Assembly (NCBI GenBank): GCA_030040915.1
Contig: JASHSI010000007.1
Span: 1-34,446 of the forward strand
DNA length: 34,446 nt
Direction: 5' to 3'
Source of the DNA: Thermoplasmata archaeon
GTDB taxonomy: Archaea > Thermoplasmatota > Thermoplasmata > Lutacidiplasmatales > UBA184
Below, one piece after another: positions 1,037 to 28,363 of the stretch; position 1 is the stretch's first letter, and every line of letters begins with the position of its first letter. The notes below the pieces were generated by a model. It was not told the origin of the DNA. It searched no databases and saw only the letters and a program-made list of their open reading frames with translations. Both the position numbers and the translations under genes were made by a program.

Positions 1037-4000
1037 TCACGCGGCGAGGACGCTCATCGTGCCGGCGTAGGCGTTCACCACGAACATCTCCCCGAGACCG
1101 CTGTCGTAGGCGAGCATGAACGGACCGTAGCCGACCGAGACGGTCGCGATGACCGTGTCCGATCGCTCGTCGATGACGCTCACCGACCCGGCGGATCCAA
1201 CGAAATTCGGGTCGGTATTGACCATGAACAGAAGGCCCTTGGCCGAGTCGTACGCGATTCCCGACGGGCCGGTTCCCACCGTCACGCCCGAACCCACGGT
1301 CGTCAGGGTTGCGTCGTCGATGACGGTCACCAGGGCCTGGTTGTTCACCGTGACGAACATCTCGCCGAAGGCGGCATCGTAGGCGATCCCCGCGGGGGAG
1401 GCGCCGGTCGGGAGGGAGACACTGCCGACCAGCGACAACGAGGCGCCACTCACGCTGTAGACCTCAATGATCGAGCTCGAGGGGCTTCCGACGAAGAGCT
1501 CGCTGAGCGCCGCATCGTAGGCGACGAAGGTGGAAGGGGCACCGACCGCCGTCTCCCCCACGGTGCCTATCGAGGAGGTGCTGAGCCACCCTATCCGGCT
1601 GGCCCCGGACTCCGCCACGTAGAAGTCCTGGGTAGTGGGATCGTAGGTGATGTTCTGCGGGGTTCCGGTCGTATAGAGGGTGGCGACCGCGCTGCTCGGG
1701 GAGGTCGCATCGAACAATTCAACGGTACCTGAGGCCGGACACGACACGGCGAGGTAGCCGTTTCCATCGGCGATCGCGTACGGCGAGGAAGGCAGAGATG
1801 ACACGGCTCCCATGAGGCCGAGCGTCGAGTCGGAGAAGATCGTCAGGGTATCGGCCCCCGGGTTCGTGACGTAGATCATCGACGAACCGGGGTCGTAGGC
1901 CGCTCCGAACGCCCCGAGGCCGGATGGGTTCGCGTTCGCGGTCACCTCGTCGACCGTCGAGGATGGTGCCGGGGGGATCCCGTTGGTGTCGGCGACCCAT
2001 ATCTCGTTCAGGGCCGTGTCGAAGGTCACCCCCTCTGCGCCGCTCGATGTCGAAGAGCTGAGCGAAACATGGAAGGCCGGCAGACCCGTGATGGGTGCCG
2101 TGTCGTTCACGAGGGTCAGATCGTCCACATACGTGCCGGTGCCCGTAACGGCAACCTGTCCTTGGCCCGCGTCGTACCAATCCCATTCGGGATCCGCGCC
2201 CACGGTGGCCGAACCGAGGGACGTGAACGCGGTCGTCGCAGCGTAGACCTGAACTGTCCCCGTACTAAATCCGACGCACGTGGGGAAGTTGCTGCAAATG
2301 GTGACCCAGATCTGCCCTTGACCCGAGTCGTACGCCACGCCCCACGGGTTCGAAACGGTGTACGGTGTGACGCTGTTCGAGAAAGAGGGGGCGAGGTCGA
2401 GGATCAGGTTCGCGGTGTTGGCAGAAATGTAGAGTTGTTGGCTGGAGGAATCATATGCGATGCCGAGCGTGGGGTGCCCGACGCTGATGGCCGTAGGCGT
2501 CGCGGCGTAGTTCGAGTCGGAGAGGGCGCACACGTCGTTCGAGGAGGCCATCGTGACGTAAACCTCGCTGTCGGCGCTGTCGTAGGCATCCTCCCACGGA
2601 TCGAGGCACGGCGCGGAGAGGGTTATCGTATCGATCACGTGATTGGCGTACGGCCCACTGTCGGCTATGACGTCGACGTTGTTCGTGTAATAGCAGACCA
2701 CCCAGATGGTGTTCGTGCCAAAGTCGTACGCCTCTCCAACCGGCTCGATGCATGAAGAGACCGTGTTTCCCGGAGGATACGACAATGTTGGGCTCGCCAC
2801 GTTGATCGTAGTCACCACCGAATTCACTCCCCCTGAGTTTAGGGTGGCCGGGTTTACCACGGTCACGCTATCGGGAGCCCCGTTGGCGGGGATGCTGTCG
2901 ACGTAGACGTAACCGTTCCCCGCGTCGTAGACGGCATCTTGGGGATTCTGCCCGACTCCCTCGGAGCCTACATCCGCGAACGTGTAGGAAGCCGGATTGA
3001 CGGTCCGCTCCACCTGGTACGGGGGTACGCTCGATGTGATCGTGTATGGTTGGAAGGCACTGTTCGTCCCGTCGGTGGCCGTGACGGTGTAGGGGCCGAT
3101 CGCTAGGTTCGGAACGACGAACGTGCAGGAGAAGCTTCCAACCGCCGAAGTGGGGCACATCGAAGGTGCGGTGCTCACGCCCGCTGAGCCGAACGTGATC
3201 GAGATGGCCGAAGTGGCAGCGAACCCGGTTCCGTTCGCGTACGTAACGGAGGCGACCGGGCCGCCAGTGGGCGTGAGTAGGAGGCTCGGGCCCACGGTGA
3301 AGCTCGCCGAGGCACTCAAAGTGCCGGTGGCCGCAGAGACGGTGTTCGGGCCCGCGGGGCTGGCGGGGAACGGGAACGTGCAGGAGAACACACCGGAGTT
3401 CGAGGCCTTGCACGGGTTCGGGGTCGTCGTGACCGGATTCCCCCCGACCGTGACGGTGACGGTCCCGCCCGCCAGGAAGCCCACCCCATCGGCCGTTACG
3501 GTCGTGCCTACGGTTCCGCCCGTAGGGTGGAGGGTGAGCACGCCGGTCACCGAGAAGGAGGTCGACGGCCCGCTGCCCGCCGGGAACACATCAACGCTCC
3601 CTCCCGAGGAGTCGGCTACGAAGACTTCGTTCGTTCCGGCATCGTAGGCCACGCCTTGCGCCCCGTCGCTCCCGGGCTCGTTGATCACGTTGATCTCATC
3701 CAGCGCCGAGTCGCCCAGAGCTCCGAGCGTCGAAGCTCCCGTGCTCGGCTCGAACAGATAGCCGGTGGACGGGTCGTACGCCAGTGATTCGGGTCCGCTA
3801 CCCACGGTGATGGAGGCCCAGGCGGTGTTGTTCGAATCGGAAATGACGCTGACCAGGCTCGTCCCAGAGTCCGCTACCCAGACTTCACCGCGCCCGCTGT
3901 CGTACGCGAGGCCCGCCGGGCTGGCCCCAACGTTCACCGTGGCGACGACCGTGTTGCTCGAGTCGGAGATCACCTTGACCTGGTTCGAGCTCGTGCTCAG

Positions 4001-5065
4001 GAGGGACACGAACACCTCGTTGGCCCCGGAGTCGTAGGCCAGGCCGTTCGGGTTCGACCCGGTGAACGCGACCGTGGCGACGACCGTGTTGCTCGAGTCG
4101 CTGATCACGCTCACGCTGTGGGAGTTGCTGTTGGCGACGAAGATCTCCCCCTTCCCGCTGTCGTAGGCCAACGCCACGGGATTGCTTCCAACCGTGACCG
4201 TTGCCACCACGGAGTTCGTCGCATCGTCGATGACGCTCACGGTGTCGGATATCAGGTTCGCGACGAAGACCTCTCCCTTGCCGGAATCGTAGACCGCGGC
4301 GGACGGGCTGCTGCCGACCCCTACGGTCGCGGTCACGGCGTTTGTGGAGTCGTCGATGACACTCACGCTGTTCGACCCCTGGTTCACGGCGAAAATCTCG
4401 CCCTTTCCCGGGTCGTAGGCGACACCGAGCGGGCTAGATCCAACAGTTATGGTTGCCAGTTGCGAGTTGGCCGGCATGTCGGTCGCGACAATCTGAACGG
4501 GGCCCCCCGGGAGCGGAGGGATCGTGAACGAGCATGGTTTCCCGGTCGTTCCAGGGAAGGCGCCGGTGCCATCCGTCGCGCAATTGGAGGAAACCGAAGC
4601 ACCGCCCACGGTGAAGCTAATCGGGGAGTTCGGGATGAAACCGGTGCCAGCTGCGGAAACGGACGTACCCGATGGCCCACTCGACGGCGACGTCGAAAAG
4701 GAGGCCGAGGACCCGGCGACCGAGAGGTGAGGGTTCCCAACCCCCTGAGGGAGTCGCACTGCCGGGCCATGAGGGGGGGAGGCGACGAGCGGCCCCAGGG
4801 AGGCGAACATGGGCGCGAGCAAGGTCGCTGCCAGGATCCCCCACAATAGGACCCCGCGCCACGGCGAACCGGCCAGGGCCCCACGTCGACTCCCAAACGT
4901 CCCCCAGGTCCTACGCCCGTGGGATCCGCAGGCATCCCCTCGGGAGGCCGGGGGCGTAACGGTTCGGTCTCCGACGGGCGAGGTGCCGAGCTTCCCACGG
5001 GTGAGAGCGGTTTGGAGACCGGTCGTAGCATTCTTTGGCAACAGAACAGTGCGAGCCTGCTGCAT
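1037..5065 (-). CDS. Large surface-exposed YVTN-type beta-propeller protein with three Ig/IPT-like domains
   Basis: 1342 aa; repeated 'VVATVxVGSxPxGLAYDSGxGEVFVAN' units at N- and C-terminal ends; Ig-like segments 'SPSSGPSGTSVSAAGTGFIPNSPISFTVGG', 'HPTGGTVGTTVTADGVGFLAGGTVTVTVGG', 'TPTGGPVASVTYANGTGFAATSAISITFGS'; hydrophobic segment near residues 70-95; TATA-like sequence about 25 nt before the ATG. Confidence 0.88.
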   Translation of the reverse strand: MQQARTVLLPKNATTGLQTALTRGKLGTSPVGDRTVTPPASRGDACGSHGRRTWGTFGSRRGALAGSPWRGVLLWGILAATLLAPMFASLGPLVASPPHGPAVRLPQGVGNPHLSVAGSSASFSTSPSSGPSGTSVSAAGTGFIPNSPISFTVGGASVSSNCATDGTGAFPGTTGKPCSFTIPPLPGGPVQIVATDMPANSQLATITVGSSPLGVAYDPGKGEIFAVNQGSNSVSVIDDSTNAVTATVGVGSSPSAAVYDSGKGEVFVANLISDTVSVIDDATNSVVATVTVGSNPVALAYDSGKGEIFVANSNSHSVSVISDSSNTVVATVAFTGSNPNGLAYDSGANEVFVSLLSTSSNQVKVISDSSNTVVATVNVGASPAGLAYDSGRGEVWVADSGTSLVSVISDSNNTAWASITVGSGPESLAYDPSTGYLFEPSTGASTLGALGDSALDEINVINEPGSDGAQGVAYDAGTNEVFVADSSGGSVDVFPAGSGPSTSFSVTGVLTLHPTGGTVGTTVTADGVGFLAGGTVTVTVGGNPVTTTPNPCKASNSGVFSCTFPFPASPAGPNTVSAATGTLSASASFTVGPSLLLTPTGGPVASVTYANGTGFAATSAISITFGSAGVSTAPSMCPTSAVGSFSCTFVVPNLAIGPYTVTATDGTNSAFQPYTITSSVPPYQVERTVNPASYTFADVGSEGVGQNPQDAVYDAGNGYVYVDSIPANGAPDSVTVVNPATLNSGGVNSVVTTINVASPTLSYPPGNTVSSCIEPVGEAYDFGTNTIWVVCYYTNNVDVIADSGPYANHVIDTITLSAPCLDPWEDAYDSADSEVYVTMASSNDVCALSDSNYAATPTAISVGHPTLGIAYDSSSQQLYISANTANLILDLAPSFSNSVTPYTVSNPWGVAYDSGQGQIWVTICSNFPTCVGFSTGTVQVYAATTAFTSLGSATVGADPEWDWYDAGQGQVAVTGTGTYVDDLTLVNDTAPITGLPAFHVSLSSSTSSGAEGVTFDTALNEIWVADTNGIPPAPSSTVDEVTANANPSGLGAFGAAYDPGSSMIYVTNPGADTLTIFSDSTLGLMGAVSSLPSSPYAIADGNGYLAVSCPASGTVELFDATSPSSAVATLYTTGTPQNITYDPTTQDFYVAESGASRIGWLSTSSIGTVGETAVGAPSTFVAYDAALSELFVGSPSSSIIEVYSVSGASLSLVGSVSLPTGASPAGIAYDAAFGEMFVTVNNQALVTVIDDATLTTVGSGVTVGTGPSGIAYDSAKGLLFMVNTDPNFVGSAGSVSVIDERSDTVIATVSVGYGPFMLAYDSGLGEMFVVNAYAGTMSVLAA

Positions 5066-5281: not shown

Positions 5282-5629
5282 TTACGGCGGGGCCGGGATG
5301 CCATCGAGGCACGATATGGTCGCATTCACCAGCCGGTCCGCATGCTGTCCCCCGGCCGTAAGCCGCACCAGGTGACCCCCTCGCTCGTCGTCGACCAGAT
5401 CCACGAGGTGACGTTCCTTGAGAAGTTCGAGATATCCCTCGAACTGCCAATAGTTGAGGCGTGCGAGGCATTGCAAATGCGTCGGCCGCACCGGGCCCTG
5501 ACTGACGAGGACGTGGAGGATCCGGCTGACCACGTAAACGTCGGGTCGAGTCCTTGGCTGGGTCGCCCATCGGCCGTTGCCGTTCGCCTTGCGCGACGCT
5601 TCAGGGCGACCGGCCATCGTGCCCCCCAT
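5282..5629 (-). CDS. Small winged-helix DNA-binding protein (same family as 21804-22085 and 24530-24934)
   Basis: 'VVSRILHVLVSQGPVRPTHLQCLARLNYWQFEGYLELLKERHLVDL' aligns by eye with the other two wHTH proteins; ATG at 5629 (alternative at 5617). Confidence 0.7.
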   Translation of the reverse strand: MGGTMAGRPEASRKANGNGRWATQPRTRPDVYVVSRILHVLVSQGPVRPTHLQCLARLNYWQFEGYLELLKERHLVDLVDDERGGHLVRLTAGGQHADRLVNATISCLDGIPAPP

Positions 5630-21803: not shown

Positions 21804-22085
21804 TCACCCGGCCCGGCCGAAGAACCGCTCGATGCTGCGCGCGAGCATCGCGAACATGTCGTATCCCTCCCGGGTCAGCTCGTACAGGGTGCCGCCGTCC
21901 TTCTCTGGAACCGCCCGTACCCACCCCCGGCTCACGAACAGATCGAGGTAGCGCTTCAGGCGCTCGTAGTTGACGTCCGACGAGCGCTGGAGCTGGGTCG
22001 GGCGCATCGGCCCGTTGTTCCGCCAGAGGGCCTCGAGGATCCGGGCCGCGACGACCAGGTCCGGGTTCGGAAACTCCTCCGGCAT
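21804..22085 (-). CDS. Small winged-helix transcriptional regulator
   Basis: VVAARILEALWRNNGPMRPTQLQRSSDVNYERLKRYLDLFVSRGWVRAVPEKDGGTLYELTREGYDMFAML; 3 nt after the stop of 22089-23327. Confidence 0.8.
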   Translation of the reverse strand: MPEEFPNPDLVVAARILEALWRNNGPMRPTQLQRSSDVNYERLKRYLDLFVSRGWVRAVPEKDGGTLYELTREGYDMFAMLARSIERFFGRAG

Positions 22086-22088
22086 CCC

Positions 22089-23327
22089 CTACGACGGCGC
22101 TCCGCTCCAGAACTCCCGTTCCAGCCCACGCCGCCACTCCTCGGCCCGGGTGATCCCCCCGTCGAACTCGTCGATGGGCCGGAGGAGACGGAACCCGACC
22201 CAGATCGTCGCGAGGACGGCGAGGCCGGCCCCGAGGGTCGGGGCCCACGCCAGTCCCGACCCAAAGCCGGAACCGTGCGAAAGGACCACCGCGAGAACGT
22301 TCGAGACGAGGAGGGCGAGCGGGGTTCCGACGATCAGCACAGTCGCCACGGCGACGGCCGCGCACCGGCGGCTAAGCGTGGTCATTCGCCGGCCGAATTC
22401 GACCGCGGTCAGGGCATTGGCGACCGAGCTGTCCCCGGGTCGATAGTCGTGGTCTCGTAGGATCCGGCCGGGTGATCGCAGGGCCAACGATAGCGGAATG
22501 AGCGGAAACCGGTCGAACTCGGAGGAGAGTGGGATCCCTTCGGCGTCCAGGATTTGGCGGAACCGTTGGAATCGGCGATCCCAAGCCCACCACAGGAGGA
22601 TGAGGATCGGGAGGGAGCTGAGGACCAATGGCCACTCCCAGCTGGCCTGGCTTGGAAAGAAGAGCACCCACGAGGCGACCCCGACCGCCCCCGCCGTGAG
22701 CAGGAGGAATAGGCCGGCGAAGTAACGGCGGCCGAGGCGAAGCGAGGCACGGTAGGCAACCCGTCCATCCGCGGCGATCTTCGCGAGGAGCGCATCGACC
22801 TCCGGACGGGGATATGGGCCTTGGGCCCCAACGTTGTTGCCTCCGGGAACTGGATCCCGGCCGTTACGAACTGGGCCGCGCAGGAGACCAAACCCCGCCG
22901 GTGAAGTTTCGGGCCGAACGGCGGGTTGTCGGCCCCAGACGACTAGAATGACAACCGCGACGAAGAATACGGCCGAGACCGGCACCGACGGTCCGATCTC
23001 ACCTAGCGATTGGGCAAAGAGAAGGTTGACGGTGGCCAGGGCCAGTAGGACCCCCGCCGCAACGAATGCGAGGAGCGTCCGGAGGCTCGATGTCGCCCCT
23101 CCGGGAGATGGTTGCCGGTCCCCGACAGCGCTTCGGCTCGCCCCCCAACCGCCTAGGAGACCCCCGACAAGGAGCAGCGGGACCGACGTGGCGAGGAAGG
23201 GCGCCACCGGCCGGTGCGTCGCGAGCGCGAAGAGGAGATTCGCCAGGCCAAGGACGACTAGAGCGAGTCCGCTAGCGACGGCGGCGAGTCTAAGTCTCGG
23301 TCTACCAGTCTTGATCGCGGCGCCCAT
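22089..23327 (-). CDS. Polytopic membrane protein of unknown function
   Basis: MGAAIKTGRPRLRLAAVASGLALVVLGLANLLFALATHRPVAPFLATSVPLLLVGGLLGG... about eight hydrophobic helices; ATG at 23327, 25 nt from TATA at 23352. Confidence 0.75.
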   Translation of the reverse strand: MGAAIKTGRPRLRLAAVASGLALVVLGLANLLFALATHRPVAPFLATSVPLLLVGGLLGGWGASRSAVGDRQPSPGGATSSLRTLLAFVAAGVLLALATVNLLFAQSLGEIGPSVPVSAVFFVAVVILVVWGRQPAVRPETSPAGFGLLRGPVRNGRDPVPGGNNVGAQGPYPRPEVDALLAKIAADGRVAYRASLRLGRRYFAGLFLLLTAGAVGVASWVLFFPSQASWEWPLVLSSLPILILLWWAWDRRFQRFRQILDAEGIPLSSEFDRFPLIPLSLALRSPGRILRDHDYRPGDSSVANALTAVEFGRRMTTLSRRCAAVAVATVLIVGTPLALLVSNVLAVVLSHGSGFGSGLAWAPTLGAGLAVLATIWVGFRLLRPIDEFDGGITRAEEWRRGLEREFWSGAPS

Positions 23328-23351: not shown

Positions 23352-23379
23352 TATAGAAGGCTGCCTTACCCACCGTAAG
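23352..23379 (-). promoter_or_regulatory. TATA plus upstream inverted repeat CTTAC-CCACC-GTAAG
   Basis: TATA at 23352-23355; inverted repeat at 23365-23379; same layout at 25030-25057. Confidence 0.65.
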
Positions 23380-23475
23380 TCGGGTCCCACCCGCCGAGAT
23401 CATGACCGCACTAGGCGGGGTGCGGCCCCCCCGGCGGTGTTTCGTGGGTCCTGGAGCCCATCACGGCCGTTCAGG

Positions 23476-23512
23476 TCATGTACCGCTTGCATGCGAGGTC
23501 GTCTCATGTACC
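23476..23512 (+). repeat. Direct repeat TCATGTACC x2, 28-bp period, upstream of the secreted-protein gene
   Basis: TCATGTACC at 23476-23484 and 23504-23512. Confidence 0.5.
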
Positions 23513-23558
23513 CATGGGGAGGCAGGATTAAGAAGCGGTTCCCCGAACGACGCTCCTA

Positions 23559-24476
23559 ATGGCACCTTCCGTGGGCTTTTCGGGGTGGTCCGGTCGGGGT
23601 CGAAAGAGCGAATTGGGCGGCTCGAAGCGAAGGCTCGCTTCGATTCTTACGCTGACCGGACTCGTCGGCCTTAGTCTAGCCGTTCTTCTTGGTGGCCTCG
23701 GTTGGTTGCCCACGGACCACGGAGGGTCACCGAACGCGTCGTCCGGAGTTCGGATTGCGAGTTCGGGAAATCCTTGGACCCTCCTCGCTCAAGCCGAGCA
23801 GACCTATTGCTTGACCAACACGACTTCCTCCACGACCTCGAACTACGCCTCGAACATCACCTCGACTGCGGAGCTTCTGAACTCCACAGGCCCATCGTGC
23901 CCCGGTTTTGCCGCGCTGAACTTCGGAATGACCGTAGAGGTGGTCGACCCGGCGACCCAGACGCTCACCAGCCTTCTCTTGGTCGATGTGGTGGACGCGA
24001 CTGGCACCGGGAGCTTCTCAGCGGTGAACGTTACGTACGACCCGATCGTCGGTACTACGATCGTCGGGGTCCAGACCGTACAGATCGGCTCGAGCGCCAG
24101 CGGCGCGGCCCAGGTCCATTCCGCCTCATCCCTGACCTCGTGCTCCTCGTCCGGTAGCTACTCCTCGGGGTGGGGTGGTTGGGCCGTTAGCTTGGACCAT
24201 TGCGCGGTGGGAGTCCTCGCTACGCGCCTCATCACTGCTGGAGTCGTGGTGAGCTACCTCAGTACAATCCTCAGCGCTCCCGCTTCCGCGATGGGGTTGG
24301 CCGCCGGAATGGCCATCGCGTACGGCGGATACAGCTTGAATTACATCGATCACGCAGGCGGATCGAACGGCCTTTTCTTCTACGGCTGGCACTACTCGGG
24401 CTGCTTCTTCTGGTCGTGCTACAGCTACTGGTACGCCGGCGGCGCCTGGTTCAACCCCGTCTGGTCGGGGTACTGA
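23559..24476 (+). CDS. Secreted/membrane-inserting protein with hydrophobic Gly/Ala core and aromatic, Cys-containing C-terminus
   Basis: Signal-peptide-like N-terminus (KRRLASILTLTGLVGLSLAVLLGGLGW), several N-x-S/T sequons, hydrophobic segment LITAGVVVSYLSTILSAPASAMGLAAGMAIAYGGY, C-terminus GWHYSGCFFWSCYSYWYAGGAWFNPVWSGY. Confidence 0.75.
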   Translation: MAPSVGFSGWSGRGRKSELGGSKRRLASILTLTGLVGLSLAVLLGGLGWLPTDHGGSPNASSGVRIASSGNPWTLLAQAEQTYCLTNTTSSTTSNYASNITSTAELLNSTGPSCPGFAALNFGMTVEVVDPATQTLTSLLLVDVVDATGTGSFSAVNVTYDPIVGTTIVGVQTVQIGSSASGAAQVHSASSLTSCSSSGSYSSGWGGWAVSLDHCAVGVLATRLITAGVVVSYLSTILSAPASAMGLAAGMAIAYGGYSLNYIDHAGGSNGLFFYGWHYSGCFFWSCYSYWYAGGAWFNPVWSGY

Positions 24477-24529
24477 GGGCGGGAACGACCCGGGCTCGAC
24501 ACGTGACGGTAGGGCGGTTCGAACCCGGA

Positions 24530-24934
24530 CTAGGCCCGGGGCCAACTTAGGGCCGAGGTCGCCACCCGGGCCTCGAGCCCGGCGGCAAGGTCGGCGAGCG
24601 CCCGGTCGGCCGTTTCGTCGAGTGTGGCCCCCCCTTGGATCTCCCCGAGGATGCGGACCCCGGACCTGAGGATGCCGAGAGCATCCTTCCCCCGCTCGGT
24701 CATCCAGACGCGGCCGCCCGCCTGCTCGTCGACCTCGAGCCCGACGAGGCCCGCGCGGGCGAGGAGCTTCAGATACCGGGAGAGCCGCGTGTAGTTGAGT
24801 CCGGAGGCCCGTTGCAGCTTGGTCGGGCAGATTGGCTTGAGCGACCCCTCGAGCGAATCCAGGATCCGCGTTACCACGAACAGATCGAGGCGCAACGGAG
24901 CCTCGGCCCGGGAGGGGGTGTGGGAGGGGCTCAT
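24530..24934 (-). CDS. Small winged-helix transcriptional regulator
   Basis: LDLFVVTRILDSLEGSLKPICPTKLQRASGLNYTRLSRYLKLLARAGLVGLEVDEQAGGRVWMTERGKDAL; ATG at 24934 chosen, upstream GTG at 24973 possible. Confidence 0.8.
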   Translation of the reverse strand: MSPSHTPSRAEAPLRLDLFVVTRILDSLEGSLKPICPTKLQRASGLNYTRLSRYLKLLARAGLVGLEVDEQAGGRVWMTERGKDALGILRSGVRILGEIQGGATLDETADRALADLAAGLEARVATSALSWPRA

Positions 24935-25029
24935 CGGAACCCTCCTTGCCCCTTCCCCGCGCGCATCGTCCACCCTCGACCGGAACCCCGAAAAGGCCCT
25001 CAGCAACAGGGAATTCTCCGAAATTGTAC

Positions 25030-25057
25030 TATACAAACCTGCCTTACTCAGGGTAAG
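25030..25057 (-). promoter_or_regulatory. TATA plus upstream inverted repeat CTTAC-TCAGG-GTAAG
   Basis: TATA at 25030-25033; inverted repeat at 25043-25057; matches 23352-23379 in sequence and spacing. Confidence 0.65.
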
Positions 25058-25186
25058 CCAGTTCCTTAAGAACGGGACCCCAAGGGGCATGTCGGAAACA
25101 TGCTCCGCATCGACCCCCTTGATCGGCCGCTAGGCTCGGGAGGGCCCCGATGCCCCGCCGGGGCCGCGCGGAGACGCGATCGCTCG

Positions 25187-25897: not shown

Positions 25898-28363
25898 TCA
25901 GCGGCCCGGTGGTCGTCGAGCGCGACGGAGGGTCCAGGCAATGACGGTGCCCGTTCCGGCGGCCGCCGCCGCGCCGAGGATCCCGAGCGCTTCGAGGGGG
26001 GTGAGCCCGAACGGTCCCGCCGCGGTGGAGGCCGGGGGCCCGACGGGTTTCGTCACGGGGGAGAAGTGGATCGCCACGGAAGCGTCGCTCCCGTTGACCG
26101 TCACCTGCCCCGAGGCCGGATGGGCCGTGTAGTTCGCCGGGCCCTCGACCGCGAACGAATAGCTCTCATTCGCCGCCTCGAAGACGATCGAACCCGAGGT
26201 GGCTCCCCTGGGTCCGAGGGGCGAAAGGGAGATCGTCCAGGGGGTCGACGGCGGGAGGCCGGTCTCCTCGAAGGCAAGCGAATACGTGACGGCGGAGAAG
26301 GTGACGGCGAGCGACCGGTTCATCGAAGACACGTCGAAGGTGCCGTTGGCGGGATCCGGCCGATACCCCGGGACCGGCGACAGGTCGTAGCTCAGGGGGC
26401 CCGGAGGGCTCGCGAGCTCGATCGAGGAGTTCGTCGAGCTGGTGACCGTGTTCCCCCAGTCGAGTCCCCAGAAGGTGCCCGGCGTGAGCCCGGTCTCGTT
26501 GATCCAGACCGGGAGCAAGACGAGCGAGAAGCGGATCGTGAGGTTGACCCCCTCCCCTTGGACCGCGATCGTGCCGGTCGGCCGGGTCGACTGGTAGCCG
26601 GGGGGCGCCTCCACCTCGAACGGAAGGTCCGTGGAGTTCGCCTCGAGGAAGGTGAGCCAGGCGTCCGTGGTCGTGTTGAGCGAACCGGAGAGGTTGACCC
26701 CCCAGGCGACGGCCAGGGGCAGCCCTTCCTCCGTGAAGTTGACCCAGAACGCCCGCTCGAACGTGACGGTCCGGGTCCCGTTGGCGCCGTCGACCCGGAT
26801 GACCCCGGTCTGGTTCACCACGACATGGGGGACCCCCCACGAGAGGGCCTCCGCACGGTACGGGTACGAGCCGTTCGCCTCCTCGTACAGGAAATCCTGC
26901 CCCGCATCGAGGATGTACCAGTTGATCCCGAAGTTGACCGCCCACAGGACGTTCGCCGGAAGTCCCACCTCGCGGACGATGATCCAGAAGACCAACCAGA
27001 GATCGAGCTCGACCGATACGTTCGTTCCGTCGACCTGGACGGTCCCGTACGTTTCGCCGTTGATGTTCAGGCTCGAATTCGACAACAGGAAGAACGTGTA
27101 CGTGCCGTTCGGTAGGTAGAAGAGTACCGACGTTCCGTTCGTCCACTCGATCCGCGGGGCCAGGTAGATCCCCCAGTACGTGCCCGCGTACAGGCTCGAC
27201 TCGGCGAGGATGACCGGGTAGGTGGGCGAGGCCGGCAGGACGAGGAGGTTGTTGGAAAGGGAGTCGGCCACGTAGAGGCCGTTGTTCCATGGATCGTACA
27301 CGTCGGCGTACGGACCCGAGCCGCCCGGGATCGTGCCCACGACCGCCATACGGGTCGCGTTGACCACGGTGACGTTCTCCTGGAACACCTCCGTCACGAA
27401 CACCTCCCCCGTCACGGGATCGTCCGCGACGCCGAGCGAGGTGTTTCCGAAGGCGAGCTCCCCCCGGACGGAACCGTTCCCCCCGTACAGGGCGGTCAGC
27501 CCCGAAGTTGTTCCCACAAAGATGTCCCCGCTCCCGGGGTCGTAGTCGATCCCCTGGGGGTCGGACCCAACCGCGACCTCCACGACGTCCGACGTGTTCG
27601 AGGCATTGAACTCGCTCACCTCGCCGGCGCCGGTGTCTGCGACGAACATCCAGCCGGTCTCGGCGTCGAACGCGATCCCCCCCGGATACGCTCCGACGGA
27701 CACCGAGCCGACCACCCGGTCCGTGTTGCCGTTGATCACCGTCGCGTTGGCGCTGTCGAAGTTGGAGACGAAGACCAGTCCAAGACCGGGGTCGAACGAG
27801 AGCCCTAGGGGCCCCGTACCGACGGCAAGGGTGCGGATCGGGGTCAACGTGGAGGCGTTCAGGATGGACACGGTGTTGGAGAAGGAGTTCGCCACGAACA
27901 GATCGTTCGTCTGGTAGTCGTAGGTGAGTCCGCTCGGGCAGCTCCCGACCGTACCCTCGCTCACCACCTGGCTCGTGAACGGGTCGACCGCCCGCACGTC
28001 GTCCGAGCCGCAATCGGCGACGAAGACGACGCCCGTGCTGTTGTCGTACGCCACGGCGTCCGGGTCGGTGCCGACGGGGATCGAGCGGTTCAGAGGGTCG
28101 GTGCCGGCGGGGGACGCCCTAGAGGGCGATGCGGTCGAGGTCGGTCCAGCTCCCTCGGATGTGGTCACAGGTTGGCTGCCCATCCGATCCGGGAGGACCT
28201 GCGAGGTCGTGCTCCCCGCCGAGGGGGGAAGAAGATGAATCGGGGACGACCGAGGGCTCGGGGCCAAGGCATGCCCCACCGGTCCACCGATCGCGCCGGC
28301 CGGCAGCCAAAGGATCGCGAGGATGAGGACGGTCCCCCAGACAGTGGTTCGGAAGGCACGCAA
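25898..28363 (-). CDS. Surface YVTN beta-propeller protein with GLP/W-type repeats and C-terminal membrane anchor
   Basis: 821 aa; signal peptide; repeats 'VAVGSDPQGIDYDPGSGDIFVG'; then 'REVGLPANVLWAVNFG', 'TEEGLPLAVAWGVNLSG', 'NETGLTPGTFWGLDWG', 'EETGLPPSTPWTISLS'; C-terminal TM LEALGILGAAAAAGTGTVIAW + RRARRPPGR. TTG start with AGGGAG SD. Confidence 0.88.
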   Translation of the reverse strand: MRAFRTTVWGTVLILAILWLPAGAIGGPVGHALAPSPRSSPIHLLPPSAGSTTSQVLPDRMGSQPVTTSEGAGPTSTASPSRASPAGTDPLNRSIPVGTDPDAVAYDNSTGVVFVADCGSDDVRAVDPFTSQVVSEGTVGSCPSGLTYDYQTNDLFVANSFSNTVSILNASTLTPIRTLAVGTGPLGLSFDPGLGLVFVSNFDSANATVINGNTDRVVGSVSVGAYPGGIAFDAETGWMFVADTGAGEVSEFNASNTSDVVEVAVGSDPQGIDYDPGSGDIFVGTTSGLTALYGGNGSVRGELAFGNTSLGVADDPVTGEVFVTEVFQENVTVVNATRMAVVGTIPGGSGPYADVYDPWNNGLYVADSLSNNLLVLPASPTYPVILAESSLYAGTYWGIYLAPRIEWTNGTSVLFYLPNGTYTFFLLSNSSLNINGETYGTVQVDGTNVSVELDLWLVFWIIVREVGLPANVLWAVNFGINWYILDAGQDFLYEEANGSYPYRAEALSWGVPHVVVNQTGVIRVDGANGTRTVTFERAFWVNFTEEGLPLAVAWGVNLSGSLNTTTDAWLTFLEANSTDLPFEVEAPPGYQSTRPTGTIAVQGEGVNLTIRFSLVLLPVWINETGLTPGTFWGLDWGNTVTSSTNSSIELASPPGPLSYDLSPVPGYRPDPANGTFDVSSMNRSLAVTFSAVTYSLAFEETGLPPSTPWTISLSPLGPRGATSGSIVFEAANESYSFAVEGPANYTAHPASGQVTVNGSDASVAIHFSPVTKPVGPPASTAAGPFGLTPLEALGILGAAAAAGTGTVIAWTLRRARRPPGR

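Follow-up and report, generated by a model that had tools for sequence, protein, structure and literature searches.

The 34,446-nt stretch of soil archaeon DNA that was analyzed (the window) contains two transcription units on the minus strand whose promoters share the inverted repeat (IR) CTTAC-N5-GTAAG. The first IR promoter precedes a membrane protein gene that is closely followed by a gene for a winged helix–turn–helix protein (wHTH1), while the second precedes a paralogous gene, wHTH2, alone (Table 1). An earlier note on this DNA had assigned the promoters to a membrane protein–wHTH operon and to a paralogous wHTH gene, and both the genes and their HTH_45 matches bear this out. The membrane protein did not match any Pfam family, and its AF2 model was of low confidence (pLDDT 62), serving for a rough helix count only. 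The gene for a predicted secreted/TM protein that lies between the two units has its own TATA-like sequence, GATTAAGAA, ~30 nt upstream; no family was matched by this protein, and it is only a candidate member of the system. Elsewhere in the window, NHL/YncE-like beta-propeller repeats were found in large proteins encoded at 1037–5065 and 25898–28363, both on the minus strand.

Table 1. Genes and promoter features associated with the two IR-bearing units; positions are those of the window
Feature	Position	Strand	Description
Membrane protein	22089..23327	-	412 aa; 7–8 predicted TM helices; C-terminal tail GLEREFW; leaderless ATG
wHTH1	21804..22085	-	93 aa; HTH_45/Sso10a-like; 3 bp after membrane gene
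wHTH2	24530..24934	-	134 aa; stand-alone paralog; HTH_45/Sso10a-like; ATG preceded by SD AAGGAGG, with a leaderless TTG at 25006 as alternative start
Predicted secreted/TM protein	23559..24476	+	305 aa; lies between the IR-driven units; divergent from membrane gene
wHTH3	5282..5629	-	third paralog in window; no IR at its promoter
Inverted repeat 1	23365..23379	-	CTTACCCACCGTAAG as given at these coordinates; gene strand CTTACGGTGGGTAAG, GCAG extension 3'; -52 to -38 from predicted start
Inverted repeat 2	25043..25057	-	CTTACTCAGGGTAAG as given at these coordinates; gene strand CTTACCCTGAGTAAG; extended palindrome CTGGCTTAC-N5-GTAAGGCAG
TATA box, membrane protein–wHTH1 operon	23352..23355	-	from sequence; IR spacing same as second promoter
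TATA box, wHTH2 gene	25030..25033	-	from sequence; IR spacing same as first promoter

Scores of wHTH1 (32.0 bits) and wHTH2 (26.8 bits) exceeded the Pfam gathering score of 25.5 bits for HTH_45 (PF14947), with wHTH3 just below it (23.4 bits). The sequences of wHTH1 and wHTH2 are most similar to Sso10a, although scores of 27.6–32.7 bits against the Sso10a chromatin protein family NF053610 lie below the NCBIfam curated cut-off of 60. In its AF2 model (pLDDT 81), wHTH2 is a winged helix extended at the C-terminus by a helical arm and matches MarR and Sso10a-2, members of families that dimerize. Five members of the wHTH family are encoded in the source genome, three of them inside the window; most relatives that carry the family hold one. 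Two arginines in the HTH (LQR and NYxR) are common to wHTH1 and wHTH2 and occur in 0/18 other family members. These two residues were picked post hoc, and private residue sharing between wHTH1 and wHTH2 was the highest among 190 pairs. A tree of the family did not resolve the two proteins as sisters. A genome contig search with wHTH2 alone as the query found no relatives, while another family query (A2) returned nine named Thermoplasmata MAG loci. The named relatives with the family are soil Thermoplasmata MAGs, including AcS5-58, AcS5-107 and AcS5-116; the AcS5 soil MAGs have been described as Lutacidiplasmatales (PMC9287336).

On the gene (minus) strand the two sites read CTTACGGTGGGTAAGGCAGCCTTCTATAC (IR 1) and CTTACCCTGAGTAAGGCAGGTTTGTATAG (IR 2). 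We confirmed the presence of the IR at both promoters with identical spacing to TATA, as well as its placement directly upstream of TATA/BRE, i.e. where archaeal activators bind. The first T of the TATA box and the A of the membrane gene ATG (23327) are 28 nt apart, a distance expected of leaderless mRNAs in archaea, and IR 1 is thereby placed at -52 to -38. In the wHTH2 promoter an in-frame TTG occupies the equivalent place, with the IR again at -52 to -38, and the ATG at 24934 is preceded by a Shine-Dalgarno sequence. It is plausible that both are leaderless/TATA promoters. The half-sites of the IR are spaced by 10 bp, and as this corresponds to one helical turn, the arrangement fits a wHTH dimer. 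On the opposite strand (25043–25070, +), GCCAG and the TATA-like CTTAAG come after the second IR, similarly spaced; judging by these letters, this IR might also serve a divergent promoter.

Dinucleotide shuffles of the window gave an expectation of 0 for the CTTAC-N5-GTAAG pair. A whole-genome scan with the motif, which the earlier note had proposed, returned two copies, both upstream of wHTH-encoding units and at promoters 1.7 kb apart, compared with ~0.43 expected from base composition; as the assembly comprises 1.81 Mb and is ~85% complete, this number of sites is a lower bound. Scanning the assembly for the IR+GCAG+TATA composite with up to 3 mismatches identified the same two sites only, and these were also the only IR+TATA sites among 78 genomes of the genus when up to 1 mismatch was allowed. 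The number expected for IR+TATA at the fixed spacing was 0.0006 per genome versus 2 present. Identity between the two promoters was 22/28 in the IR-to-TATA core, and 17/50 and 12/50 in the sequence adjoining it upstream and downstream, respectively. As identity outside the 28-bp core is at background level, the shared core is not explained by a recent duplication of the region. When all TATA pairs in the window were compared, the IR promoter pair matched at 18/24 positions upstream of TATA and the next best pair at 12/24.

The membrane protein–wHTH gene pair (dyad) recurs in relatives. The wHTH occurs in 13 of the 77 other genomes of the genus, and in every case in which the preceding gene was readable, this gene encodes a multi-TM protein and lies directly upstream. 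Across the class the family is present in 41/300 Thermoplasmata genomes, and nearly all of the loci examined have the same gene order, with a 4–8 TM partner and gaps of mostly 1–28 nt. A further dyad occurs in the source genome itself (G000:C9:24500-31500); its membrane protein is paralogous to that of the window (29% identical). We found no published description of this dyad in the open-licence literature.

In most of the genus membrane partners the C-terminal tail, which is predicted to be cytosolic from its charge distribution, ends in LExxFWxR[FY]. Long (7–8 TM) and short (~4 TM) genus proteins align over their last 35 residues only (HHalign 95.9%), and profile comparison of the membrane proteins across families detected no homology outside the genus tail. 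This motif is a plausible site of coupling to the wHTH, and the alignment pattern is as expected if the membrane partners diversify as sensors while the coupling tail is retained. In family f19 (loci L121–L127 and L129), distant wHTH homologs are encoded 1 nt after a shorter, 5-TM protein of ~245 aa that has a conserved ELRWFYxEF tail. In two relatives a gene for a small secreted/anchored protein is located ahead of the membrane gene (L046, about 2015–2447; L051, about 1965–2499) and directly behind a GGAGGAA element, suggesting a three-gene version of the dyad.

We also compared the promoters of these dyads. Dyad promoters of the genus contain CGCGGAGGAAG-N2-GTAA (also given as CGCGGAGGAAGTCGTAAG), the first G of which is 38–39 nt before the start codon in 8/12, and 5 of the 11 exact matches to GGAGGAAGNNGTAA in the 78 genus genomes are at dyad promoters. 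Outside the genus, 26 family dyads align to ACGYATCGNCGNGGAGTAAS just before a TATA-like TATCTAAC; the rows of this alignment were chosen for their GGAG core, such that only the flanking conservation is independent. The form at dyads of other families is also given as ACGTATCGCCGTGGAGTAAG, and the dyad elements of relatives are of the GGAGTAA/GGAGGAAG type. An unbiased scan of 300 genomes with the extended class motif GTATCGNNGNGGAGTAA produced 7 matches, 6 of them at dyads. The seventh (G104:C38 near 147219; L135/L138) is in the promoter of a gene for a 343-aa secreted, multi-TM protein rather than a dyad, in a genome in which the family wHTH was not detectable. Within 25 dyad loci, 15 of the 17 occurrences of the GGAGTAA core are the dyad promoter. 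The f19 dyads do not have the GGAGTAA element, but most dyads outside f19 carry a near-private element at BRE/TATA. From this near-privacy we conclude that the wHTH family has dedicated promoter elements.

The class dyad element is not itself a clean palindrome. Equating the right arm of the IR with the class GGAGTAAG element was considered and rejected, as the PWM was suggestive for gene 2 and not for gene 1: the gene-2 right arm, TGAGTAAG, ranked 18 of 68,876 window positions with the 9-mer PWM, while the rank for gene 1 was 485 and fell at a different place. In relative G037 (L017 and L019), CTTACTGGCAGTAAGGC occurs within a repeated element of ~200 bp with the ends TGTGTTGC..GCAACACA, which is probably a small mobile element.

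At the two promoters of the window the CTTAC palindrome stands in place of the genus element. None of the 77 other genus genomes contains the IR, nor do the promoters of the remaining wHTH copies in the source genome, among them that of the C9 dyad, which retains the genus-type GGAGGAACG. Orthologous operons have different conserved elements at the position of the IR. The earlier note had named conservation in relatives as a standard for its motif, and by that standard the exact motif is lineage-specific. Its claim of a two-operon regulon controlled by the wHTH family that it encodes stands in part: the IR is confined to both units and dedicated elements follow the family throughout the class, but the exact IR does not extend to relatives. 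As the IR is not conserved in the available relatives, the functional case is built on its recurrence within the genome and on analogy with the conserved elements. The first IR is a dyad-symmetric site at the promoter of the putative regulator's own operon, as for an autoregulatory wHTH operator.

The simplest model is that wHTH1 and wHTH2 regulate their own and each other's units, with the membrane partner gating them. We consider it probable, with some reserve, that the IR is the operator for this regulation and a lineage-specific version of the class-wide dyad element. A homodimeric Sso10a-like wHTH (wHTH1, wHTH2 or both) would bind CTTAC-N5-GTAAG(GCAG) on one face of the DNA beside the BRE, and would thereby control the membrane protein–wHTH1 operon and the wHTH2 gene. 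The membrane protein, presumably a sensor or tether, would bind and gate the adjacent wHTH through the C-terminal tail predicted to be cytosolic, which in the genus bears LExxFWxR[FY]. The IR site would be the local form of the dedicated promoter element of Thermoplasmata dyads. Archaeal activators typically bind just upstream of the BRE, whereas repressors overlap the promoter (PMC5512572, PMC4158304). The position of the IR upstream of the BRE slightly favors activation, but its right arm overlaps the edge of the BRE, so that repression is also conceivable.

Three other explanations were weighed against an operator for the encoded wHTHs. The IR could be the operator of an unlinked regulator that controls both units, with the encoded wHTHs acting elsewhere. 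We regard this as unlikely: although the identity of the IR-binding protein is something that we infer, and related dyads, among them the GGAGGAACG-bearing C9 dyad of the same genome, have elements other than the IR, the only two IR sites of the genome adjoin wHTH-encoding units and the class dyad elements travel with the wHTH family, not with other genes. Less likely again is a core-promoter variant, i.e. BRE plus extended upstream sequence, that was inherited by two paralogous promoters and has no dedicated regulator. Archaeal BREs are purine-rich, which counts in favor of such a variant; GTAAGGCAG adjoins the BRE position, and the class element GGAGTAA is likewise located at the BRE. However, the perfect palindrome reaches 15 bp upstream of the BRE, the background identity of the flanks argues against recent duplication, no other promoter of the genome contains the motif with up to 3 mismatches, and the class and genus elements differ from general BREs in being near-private to dyads. 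Chance, or a remnant of a mobile or repeat element, is very improbable, for although the IR is short (10 fixed bases) and a dispersed repeat accounts for its matches in G037, the rare combination of IR and TATA was found twice at paralogous promoters, with GCAG in both, and no repeat reaches past the 28-bp core.

Beyond the operator for wHTH1 and wHTH2, we tentatively propose, at slightly under even confidence, a class-wide, non-phosphorelay system of Thermoplasmata. A rapidly diversifying multi-TM sensor would use its conserved cytosolic tail to gate an Sso10a-like, autoregulating wHTH that acts at a near-private element; in this genome the system would have expanded to five wHTHs, two of which would have been rewired onto a new shared palindromic operator. 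Little is known of how signals reach transcription in uncultured Thermoplasmata. Our interpretation, if correct, would provide a small two-gene membrane-to-promoter switch with a predicted sensor tail, regulator and operator that could be tested in vitro using short DNA. It would also give a regulatory role to Sso10a-like proteins, which are known mainly as chromatin proteins, and the pair of loci would illustrate how operators turn over between paralogs in nature.

Among known systems, the one that comes nearest in function is the HAAS–PadR dyad (DUF1700/HAAS), a membrane protein with a signaling module plus a stand-alone wHTH that has been proposed as a two-component alternative (PMC11237479). 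In both cases a stand-alone wHTH shares one operon with, and is coupled as gene neighbor to, a membrane protein whose short helical module is conserved and cytosolic. The wHTH here is Sso10a/HTH_45-like, however, matching HTH_45 and not PadR, and no HAAS (DUF1700-like) Pfam match was found in the window or in related membrane proteins. The module here is a C-terminal tail, and the system is archaeal and has a dedicated operator-like promoter element. By this analysis the Thermoplasmata dyad is functionally closest to HAAS–PadR but, lacking both domains, is not a member.

The Sso10a family (HTH_45; PDB 1R7J, 4HW0) is the nearest in sequence and one of the nearest in fold. Sso10a dimerizes via its C-terminal helix, and its wHTHs act as chromatin proteins rather than demonstrated operator binders (PMC4941522), which counts against the operator reading of the IR. 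In contrast to Sso10a, the wHTHs here score ~28–33 versus 60 bits, below the NCBIfam cut-off, and their operon with a membrane protein and their promoter elements point to a local regulator instead of a chromatin protein. TrmB/TrmBL1 are archaeal wHTH regulators with palindromic operators (TACT-N3-AGTA, TGM; PMC4158304) at or upstream of BRE/TATA, the upstream sites being tied to activation; the proteins here differ in being single small wHTHs of another family, without a sugar-binding domain, and with another motif at two sites only. Finally, ArnR/ArnR1, the membrane-bound one-component regulators of Sulfolobus, also link an archaeal wHTH at the membrane to transcription control, but combine in one protein the sensor and DNA-binding domain (PMC6396743) that are here divided between two adjacent genes.
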